A DNA stretch of 46,193 nt, taken from a bacterium. GTDB lineage: Bacteria; Verrucomicrobiota; Verrucomicrobiia; Limisphaerales; JAJXZI01. The stretch spans positions 1 to 46,193 of the forward strand of contig JAJXZI010000339.1 of assembly GCA_021780115.1 (NCBI GenBank), written 5' to 3'. This document shows positions 40,193 to 42,292 of this stretch, in pieces. The stretch's first letter is position 1; every line of letters begins with the position of its first letter. The notes below the pieces were generated by a model that had not been told where the DNA came from, did no database searches, and saw only the letters and a list, made by a program, of their open reading frames with translations. Both the position numbers and the translations under genes were made by a program.

Positions 40193-40257
40193 CAGCCACG
40201 GCCGCGAAGGAAATGGCCAATGCCCCGCACCGCGTCTCGGAACGCCAGTTCGCGCGC

Positions 40258-40361
40258 CAGCGTTTTGGACTGCGGCGGCCCTCAGCCGCTTTTCGACAAC
40301 CCGCTCCCCACGCTCGGTCGCTGTCCAAAGCGCCAGAGGACTGGCACAGTCCAAAACGCTG
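40258..40361. repeat. 104-bp element with perfect 15-bp terminal inverted repeats
   Basis: CAGCGTTTTGGACTG (40258-40272) ... CAGTCCAAAACGCTG (40347-40361). Confidence 0.8.
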
Positions 40362-40566
40362 CCGCGCCAGACTCAGCCCCGCGTGCTGCCAGGCGTTACC
40401 AGGAACCGGGATGCGCCTGCGGTCTTTGGCTCACCTGTCTTTTCGCTTGCCAGACGGTGGGGCCGGTGAGACAAACGCGCCAAGCGTCAGCAGACGCAAG
40501 CCGATGAACGATCTGGGAACAACGGGCCAAAACCGTGGCCGAACACGGGCGGGGGGAATTGTTCTG

Positions 40567-40614
40567 CCGCGAGCGGTTGTTCCCAGGCAAATGACCGGGA
40601 ACAACCGCTTGCGG
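40567..40614. repeat. 18-bp stem hairpin immediately left of the cassette boundary
   Basis: CCGCGAGCGGTTGTTCCC-aggcaaatgacc-GGGAACAACCGCTTGCGG, one G-T pair. Confidence 0.8.
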
Positions 40615-40625
40615 TCGAATACCTG

Positions 40626-41589
40626 TTAGGTGCCTAGCCGCATGAGCACACTCAACCAACCAAACTTAGACAAGCTCAGACAGAAGTTAGCGCCACATCC
40701 GTTGCACCTTGGTGTCATTCTGGATGGAGCAGTGACGAGCTTTTCAGACAGCGCGAACCCGCTCCGCTTTTCTAATACCGCAACTGGCCTTCGCGAGCTA
40801 CTTCGCGAGTTGTTTGTCGCGATCTCGCCTGACCGGAGTATTCAGGATTCCACTTGGTTTACTCCCGATCCGACCTCACAGACTGGTGTGACGCGCCGCC
40901 ACCGCACGCTGTTTGCGGTATATTCTTACCTTGACCCACAGCATTTCCCTACCAACTTTGCTTCCAGTGTCGAGGCACTTGCCGCGCAAATCGGTAAGCA
41001 AGTTGGGGCGCTGTCGGCATTCACGCACATCACCAAGGCAAGTCTCGCCACTCCTGAGCAGGCTGCCATTGCCTGCTTCGACTCAACGGTTCGATTATTT
41101 CTTCGCCTATTCGACGCGATTGACTCCGCCCGGGAGCACCTACGAGATGCACTCCAGATTGAGCTTCAGGAGCGTTTGTCCGATATTTTTACATCCGAGT
41201 TCTTTGATGAGCTTGATATTCTTTCCACTCACACACGCCCTCAAGACGCCGAGGATGTCGAGGTTGAGATTGAAGACATCGGCAAGGAAGCAATTACATT
41301 CTCCGGCACTGGCAGTGTCTTGTGTGACCTTCAGTATGGCTCTGACGGTGACTGTCGGCGGGGCGATGGCTTGGAGTTCAGTGATTCGTATCCTTTCACA
41401 TTCTCCGGCGAGGCACGCACGTCCAGTCCCCGCGACGTGACGGTAGATCGTGGCGATATATCCGTAGATACAAGTTCGTTCTATGAGTAGCCCGGCACCT
41501 AACAAGTCGCCGGAGCCAACGCCGGTTGGCGCTGTCAGTTCCGCTTCGCGGTTCACGGTTTTTGGCCCGGCGTGGCTCAGCTTTTTTCG
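40626..41589 (+). mobile_element. Putative integron gene cassette 1
   Basis: Starts TTAGGT after G40625; ends at G41589 of attC1; its R'' ACCTAAC is exactly complementary to GTTAGGT at its own 5' junction; single ORF in array orientation. Confidence 0.82.
40642..41490 (+). CDS. Cassette-encoded protein, tentatively related to predicted pPIWI-associating nucleases
   Basis: ATG 16 nt into the cassette; LRELLRELFVAISPD..STWFTPDPTSQTGVTRRHR and VLCDLQYGSDGDCRRGDGLEFSDSYPFTF; family assignment from memory of motifs only. Confidence 0.4.
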   Translation: MSTLNQPNLDKLRQKLAPHPLHLGVILDGAVTSFSDSANPLRFSNTATGLRELLRELFVAISPDRSIQDSTWFTPDPTSQTGVTRRHRTLFAVYSYLDPQHFPTNFASSVEALAAQIGKQVGALSAFTHITKASLATPEQAAIACFDSTVRLFLRLFDAIDSAREHLRDALQIELQERLSDIFTSEFFDELDILSTHTRPQDAEDVEVEIEDIGKEAITFSGTGSVLCDLQYGSDGDCRRGDGLEFSDSYPFTFSGEARTSSPRDVTVDRGDISVDTSSFYE

Positions 41590-41595
41590 TTAGGC
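41497..41595 (+). other. attC1 integron recombination site
   Basis: R'' ACCTAAC; spacer AAGTCGCCG; L'' GAGCCAACGCCGG pairs with L' CCGGCGTGGCTC leaving one extrahelical A; R' GTTAGGC. Confidence 0.85.
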
Positions 41596-42286
41596 TCAAG
41601 CGAACATGGACTCCATCCTGAAATCATTCTCGATCGGCTTTCTTCTCCGGAGTGTTTTCTCGGGAGTGTTCTTCGTGATCTCCTATTATGTGGCCTCGCA
41701 TAGCCCGGCGGACTTATTGAAGATCGACGGCAAGATGTTTCTCTCGCTTGGCCTACCGGCAGCGCTGTTCGCAGGCGTTACAACCTACGGCTTGCATCGT
41801 TCTCTGTTCTATCCGGTCATTGAGTTCTGCTACGACAGTAATCGTGGCAAGGCCCTCCGAAAGCGCAGGCCCTTGATCCGTGATGCGACGATACGCACGC
41901 TCTTATGGCGATGGAGCGCAGACGACGCGACCAGTGCGACACTCAGGCGCCCGCGACAGAATAGGCACTTCAACACGTGGGCCGACTTCATACATCTTCA
42001 GTACGCTTCGGCCCAGTGTATTGTTTTTGGTGCCGTTGTCGGTCGTGTTGTTGTCCCCGGCGAGCATCCACCTTATTGGCCGCTCATCAGTCTTGCAGTT
42101 CTCCTATTCATTGCTGCCCTTGTCTCAGATTGGCGAACACATTCGGTTTTGGATCATATCAGGAATGAGCCTAACAAGTCGCTGCACGCAACAGCCGCCG
42201 CGCTGGGCAGTTGACCGGTTTATGAAACTTGAACATCATCATTGCATCTCACGTCCCGCTCCGGCGGCTGTGCGTGAGCTTTGGCG
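41590..42286 (+). mobile_element. Putative integron gene cassette 2
   Basis: Starts TTAGGC after G41589; ends at G42286; its R'' GCCTAAC is exactly complementary to GTTAGGC at its own 5' junction. Confidence 0.82.
41606..42214 (+). CDS. Cassette-encoded multi-pass membrane protein of unknown function; C-terminal tail encoded by attC2
   Basis: Hydrophobic segments SGVFFVISYYVA, FLSLGLPAALFAGVTTYGL, CIVFGAVVGRVVV, WPLISLAVLLFIAALV; tail NKSLHATAAALGS lies in attC2. Confidence 0.65.
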   Translation: MDSILKSFSIGFLLRSVFSGVFFVISYYVASHSPADLLKIDGKMFLSLGLPAALFAGVTTYGLHRSLFYPVIEFCYDSNRGKALRKRRPLIRDATIRTLLWRWSADDATSATLRRPRQNRHFNTWADFIHLQYASAQCIVFGAVVGRVVVPGEHPPYWPLISLAVLLFIAALVSDWRTHSVLDHIRNEPNKSLHATAAALGS

Positions 42287-42292
42287 TTAAGC
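42169..42292 (+). other. attC2 integron recombination site
   Basis: R'' GCCTAAC; spacer AAGTCGCTG; L'' CACGCAACAGCCGCCG pairs with L' CGGCGGCTGTGCGTG leaving one extrahelical A; spacer AGCTTTGGC; R' GTTAAGC. Confidence 0.88.

Follow-up and report, generated by a model that had tools for sequence, protein, structure and literature searches.

The window analysed here, 46,193 bases in length, is the whole of contig C336 of a MAG (G000; 5.15 Mb assembly, 344 contigs, 86% complete). It carries two putative single-gene cassettes behind a structured leader, with the following features:

40438-40624, plus strand: leader (array-head element), directly 5' of the crossover base and ending AATACCT
40625-40631, plus strand: crossover heptamer GTTAGGT (G^TT) at the leader/cassette 1 junction, exact reverse complement of attC1 R''
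40625-41588, plus strand: cassette 1, bounded by the crossover points 40625 and 41589
40642-41490, plus strand: ORF1 (282 aa), predicted nuclease with matches to Pfam pP_pnuc_1/pP_pnuc_2 and PADLOC Aga_Nuclease
41497-41595, plus strand: attC1, with R'' ACCTAAC (41497-41503), R' GTTAGGC (41589-41595) and one extrahelical base
41589-42285, plus strand: cassette 2, bounded by the crossover points 41589 and 42286
41606-42214, plus strand: ORF2 (202 aa), a family-less protein with hydrophobic segments, its 3' end overlapping attC2
42169-42292, plus strand: attC2, with R'' GCCTAAC and R' GTTAAGC (42286-42292), of a separate attC subtype

A first-pass annotation of this DNA had reported two attC-like sites at these positions with these R'' and R' sequences, and the sequence bears this out. 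When all 46,193 bases were scanned on both strands for the attC architecture (R''=RYYYAAC, R'=GTTRRRY, an L''/L' stem of at least 10/11 and one extrahelical base), attC1 and attC2 were the sole matches, against a mean of 0.02 matches (maximum 1) in 100 first-order Markov controls. The single extrahelical base per L''/L' stem that the annotation described is found both by the scan and by DNA folding, in which the bottom strand of each site forms an R stem and an L stem with a one-base bulge (z = -2.21 for attC2). The two sites thus have inverted R''/R' and L''/L' boxes, an extrahelical base and a foldable bottom strand, and they lie 573 bp apart in the same orientation. When 16 further attC sites of G000 were used for a sequence profile and both window sites were excluded, the profile recovered attC1 with an E-value of 2e-18 and attC2 with one of 0.0032, the weaker score of attC2 being due to its belonging to another attC subtype. 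Among 18 attC sites of this genome the stem covaries, with double changes in 10 of 13 pairs. The covariance-model check that the annotation had proposed gave 89.6 bits for attC1 and 70.2 bits for attC2 with model R1, which was built from G000's own sites and has both window sites in its training set (the E-values of R1 and of the leader models R2 and R3 below are rough). We regard 41497-41595 and 42169-42292 as attC sites that close two predicted one-gene cassettes.

In both window cassettes R'' and the 5' heptamer of the same cassette are reverse complements, the pattern that the logic of a circular cassette calls for; the annotation had recognized this pairing, and it is exact in 11 of the 12 cassettes measured in G000. 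The lower GC content that it had noted was also confirmed: the array has a GC content of 0.546, compared with a mean of 0.656 (sd 0.034) for 1-kb windows of the contig, and it is the GC minimum of the contig, with all four of the lowest windows falling there. Among 29 GHL10 orthologues with flanking sequence, the isomerase gene was adjacent in none and no cassettes were present upstream, leaving no empty site to compare. An inverted repeat (CCAGCGTTTTGGACTG / CAGTCCAAAACGCTG) lies at 40248-40362, between the isomerase gene and the leader. An Rfam microRNA match at 40252-40367 was dismissed, as it scored 27.8 against a cut-off of 168.

ORF1 is probably a defence nuclease, because it matches Pfam pP_pnuc_1 and pP_pnuc_2 (1.8e-28 and 9.1e-20) and PADLOC Aga_Nuclease (Aga-type; 8.1e-61). 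Relatives of ORF1 with less than 60% identity are found on 57 plasmids, and no recognisable Argonaute or PIWI partner was identified in the two cassettes. The locus would thus be a case of a putative defence nuclease carried in a cassette outside any recognised integron. ORF2 has no Pfam or PADLOC match and only a sub-cut-off NCBIfam match. Other cassettes of G000 encode ankyrin, thioredoxin-like, zinc-ribbon and DUF1559 proteins as well as numerous unknown proteins, as is usual in environmental cassettes.

attC sites across the genome and the search for an integrase

The wider search for attC sites that had been suggested, performed with R1 on G000, identified about 30 sites (E < 1e-3) on 18 contigs. 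Ten of these contigs either gave training sites or overlap an array that did so (C307 and C265 join end to end), and the remaining eight (C289, C157, C193, C82, C276, C134, C155 and C322) hold no training site. The ends of C307 and C265 overlap inside an attC site, so the assembler has probably divided one array between these contigs; the G000 assembly is broken by attC repeats.

No match to the integron integrase model TIGR02249 was found on C336, in keeping with the annotation's report of no visible integrase, and none was above the cut-off in G000, where the best match scored 85 bits against 265. The best G000 matches were rejected as IntI proteins: they comprise a XerC-like protein (C154), a XerD-like protein (C136) and other tyrosine recombinases, with these calls made from score and reading. 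By the same measure, G001 (the only other genome of the family) has two strong IntI proteins (418 and 411 bits), and IntI is above the cut-off in 67 of 196 sampled genomes of the order, several of which have two or three copies. The order seems to be integron-rich and little described, and because the clade is integron-rich, the missing intI of G000 may reflect loss or MAG incompleteness. As about 30 attC sites are spread over 18 contigs with no intI above the cut-off, we take the window array to be one among many dispersed short arrays.

Structure, copies and dispersal of the leader

The first-pass annotation began the feature at 40625, which is correct as the start of cassette 1; this start left out the leader at 40438-40624, which was therefore missed. 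The window leader contains a TTTTCGCTTGCC motif, a decayed hairpin 1 and a strong hairpin (GCGGTTGTTCCC/GGGAACAACCGC) with a small nested hairpin. When it is aligned with the leaders of 13 other array heads, the element is seen to be approximately 190-217 nt in size, with three covarying hairpins and the end AAT-N2-CTG^TT. Specifically, the 5' part of the 14-leader alignment reads TTTT-N-GCTTGCC and then ATGCAAGC; hairpin 1 is GGATAAACCGCA/TGCGGTTTATCC, hairpin 2 is TAAACCGCA/TGCGGTTTA followed by CCGGAAAACCCGG, and hairpin 3 is AACCGC..GCGGTT followed by AAT-N2-CT and then G^TT. AAACCGCA occurs in the leader up to three times per orientation, and the right arm of hairpin 2 can alternatively pair with the left arm of hairpin 3.

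Both sides of the three helices have changed in a compensatory manner in 6/13, 5/12 and 5/7 pairs, double-change cells number 44 (19.1 +/- 3.4 when shuffled), and 83.5% of cells are paired, compared with 43% or less in slid controls. The DNA fold of the window leader has a z-score of -4.35, and this copy, a training member of both leader models, scores 73.3 bits with R2 (40573-40631) and 53.6 bits with R3 (40514-40624). The covariation supports a structure and not an RNA function over a DNA function: because palindromes can stay paired by copying between their arms, it is silent on RNA versus DNA. No match to the leader was found in Rfam, plasmids or viral contigs, and literature searches covering openly accessible papers turned up no description of such a dispersed leader.

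The hairpin leader recurs at array heads on C140, C154, C68 and C307 of G000. R2, trained on these four leaders and that of C336, identified three further copies in the same genome: downstream of those on C13 and C124 lie cassettes whose attC types are absent from R1, and that on C235 runs out at the contig end. All of the intact G000 leaders that can be followed (7/7) head an array. Following analysis of 196 genomes of the order with R2, nine copies were found in G192, which belongs to another family, and one weak copy in G151. As R2 had seen only G000, the nine G192 copies constitute a blind prediction. R1 places a same-strand attC site downstream of six of these nine leaders, and in seven of the nine the leader-end heptamer (GTTCGGC, GTTAGCC, GTTAGAC or GTTAGGC) is exactly complementary to R'' of the next attC. 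The two remaining leaders meet a contig end and an IS630-like insertion (identified by reading), respectively.

When intact copies are counted (eight in G000 and nine in G192), exact complementarity between the leader-end heptamer and the next R'' is found at 13 of 17 heads, namely C336, C140, C154, C68, C13 and C307 and the seven in G192. At C307, for example, the leader end reads GTTAGGC and the first attC opens GCCTAAC (both read from the sequence), while the C124 heptamer is one base off. The heptamer itself varies over the agreeing copies (GTTAGGT, GTTGGAA, GTTCGGC, GTTAGCC, GTTAGAC and GTTAGGC). No leader match was obtained on eight or more further attC contigs of G000, in some cases owing to contig ends, and a leader is detectable only if its 3' part is fairly intact. 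In one array without a leader match, on C36, copies of a direct repeat around CCTCCCATCCATGAGCCGCCCT..GTTGACTTC lie on either side of the first cassette (L018 6735-6760 and 7365-7400). When 85,462 species genomes, a set from which own-genome records may be left out, were scanned with a strict core pattern, only the record of G192 (JAKANS01, MAG WY5.bin88) matched. The leader is therefore rare, and the evidence comes from essentially two genomes, both of them fragmentary low-coverage MAGs.

The leader subtypes of G000 and G192 intermix (support 0.99-1.0), and no flanking genes are common to the leader loci of the two genomes, between which only translated leader/attC sequence matched. Within G192, the 98% identity between the leaders of C219 and C7 spans exactly 217 nt and stops at the crossover; the DNA to the left of the two leaders is unrelated and the cassettes to the right differ. 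The leaders of C142 and C16 behave in the same way at 83% identity. G192 also has 3'-truncated or decayed leaders without cassettes (C296:12702-12812 and C71:2228-2340), and the leader can therefore exist without cassettes. In two arrays of this genome, C142 and C137, the final crossover marks the beginning of a common element of approximately 290 nt (72% identity), downstream of the last attC. A 3' trailer general to arrays was rejected because only these two have one, and the leader thus does not form the left half of a larger element common to arrays.

Comparison with attI, CALINs and attG sites

Integrons are usually described as a single array with one attI beside one intI, while scattered CALINs are usually explained as the result of decay or as attG accidents. 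To our knowledge, CALINs have no common head element. The end of the leader, CAATAACTG^TT, resembles the cores of the intI-linked attI sites of G192 (CAATTAACTTG^TT) and G001 (TATTCAACTG^TT). The leader is also like attI, the primary recombination site, in its G^TT crossover, at which the first cassette begins exactly, in the newest cassette abutting it and in its AT-rich CAAT..CTG end. It differs in lying away from intI, in being multi-copy, in its three covarying hairpins and in moving as a unit. It does not adjoin intI, since G000 lacks intI above the cut-off and the intI genes of G001, G181 and G192 have other attI regions. The hairpin leader is absent from the intI-linked attI regions examined (G001, G192, G181 and others). 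Because these regions are without hairpins, we conclude from the sequences that the leader is not a copy of the examined attI sites, although its last bases are attI-like.

With at least two attC sites close together in the same orientation and no intI in the 46-kb contig, the window corresponds to a CALIN in the IntegronFinder usage (PMC9024848); it differs in that its genome has about 17 such loci, which are dispersed and several of which are leader-headed. The first-pass annotation had offered a CALIN or a secondary-site insertion. Its integrase-less array is well supported, but this pair of explanations is incomplete: the array belongs to a genome-wide set, and the insertion point, at the end of a conserved leader, is no random secondary site. 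The CALINs found at seven conserved Xanthomonas loci and described by their neighbouring genes (PMC12444791) similarly amount to numerous intI-less arrays in a genome, apart from its main integron, but unlike the leader-headed arrays they are defined without a common head element. In accounts of attG sites that cite Loot et al. 2024 (PMC12444791 and PMC12901181), insertions are distributed over many loci with a short consensus. The arrays described here likewise have cassettes at scattered genomic positions, but with a recurring homologous element of approximately 200 nt that is conserved and far longer than the consensus given in those accounts. In class 1 and class 2 integrons, a deltaattI can replace the attC of a cassette (PMC12901181). 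Similarly, at C142:18357-18430 of G192 (L169 1460-1580), the attC of cassette 1 is replaced, after R'' GGCTAAC, by a leader fragment; in contrast to deltaattI-type cassettes, this fragment derives from the hairpin leader and not from attI1 or attI2.

Possible roles of the leader

In our view the leader is probably an attI-like landing pad, dispersed and movable, that serves an IntI acting in trans. The two cassettes, one with the predicted defence nuclease ORF1 and the other with the unknown protein ORF2, would have been inserted at the 3' end of the leader, which would be the equivalent of attI, physically apart from intI. IntI would act in trans, its gene having been lost from or being missing in the incomplete MAG, or the protein being provided by another replicon or cell. 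We infer that IntI recombines the folded bottom strand of the incoming attC with G^TT at the leader end, and the newest cassette would therefore always abut the leader. As a discrete unit, the leader would have been copied to numerous loci, in a manner that we likewise infer, giving rise to many short arrays and not one long array; the hairpins might help recombination, perhaps by extrusion or through repeated binding sites (AAACCGCA). It is an evenly balanced question whether the leader constitutes a new integron component, a mobile, multi-copy, multi-hairpin pad uncoupled from intI that allows many arrays to be served by one IntI and that crosses families. Counting against the landing pad are the lack of intI above the cut-off in G000, the attI regions without hairpins, the restriction of the evidence to essentially two genomes, the leaderless arrays, the cassette-free copies and the fragmentary, low-coverage state of the MAGs.

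The same observations bear on other explanations. The leader could be an unrelated dispersed palindromic repeat of the REP or IS200/IS605-derived MITE type, with an attG-like hairpin end at which cassettes have been inserted opportunistically. This would account for a hairpin-rich, multi-copy sequence of about 215 nt that moves as a unit and has truncated, array-free copies, but we consider it unlikely, given that every intact G000 copy that can be followed heads an array and that copies end exactly at the crossover, with the final bases AAT..CTG conserved beyond the hairpins. An ordinary CALIN, in which intI of one or more ancestral integrons was lost or left unassembled and the leader is the corresponding attI, copied by duplication or rearrangement, is a decidedly unlikely explanation. 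The intI-linked attI cores do end like the leader, the order is rich in IntI, the MAG is incomplete and arrays lie at contig ends; however, the three-hairpin leader is missing from the examined intI-linked attI regions, even at the intI of the nine-leader genome G192, and the unrelated flanks on both sides of leader copies and their abrupt ends are unlike segmental duplications.

There is little to recommend a leader with the chief role of a promoter or 5' UTR regulatory RNA, selected because leaderless arrays would be silent. The leader is upstream of all first cassettes in the same orientation and could adopt alternative pairings, but no sigma-70-like promoter or terminator was found in the window leader or the G192 C142 leader, the leader matches no Rfam family, and the analogous riboswitch claim for class 1 integrons is contested (PMC9410878). 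That the array and its attC sites are chance palindromes has been refuted for practical purposes: apart from the weak leave-out score of attC2, all of the evidence (the control scans, the conserved attC family of G000 and the heptamer complementarity) is against it.

If the leader is indeed a landing pad, a conserved movable head element would explain the many short arrays of some genomes and would open cassette capture at numerous loci to direct testing, and the leader would serve as a sequence handle for finding such systems. The G000 arrays on C68 (L023 5700-5880) and C13 (L084 4640-4466, minus strand) differ in their leaders and cassettes and have the same 3' flank (97% identity over 168 bp), which is the start of an ilvD-like gene. 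The similarity of C13 to the C68 flank then breaks off abruptly. This suggests that the common flank was carried along by recombination or that it represents a strain variant.
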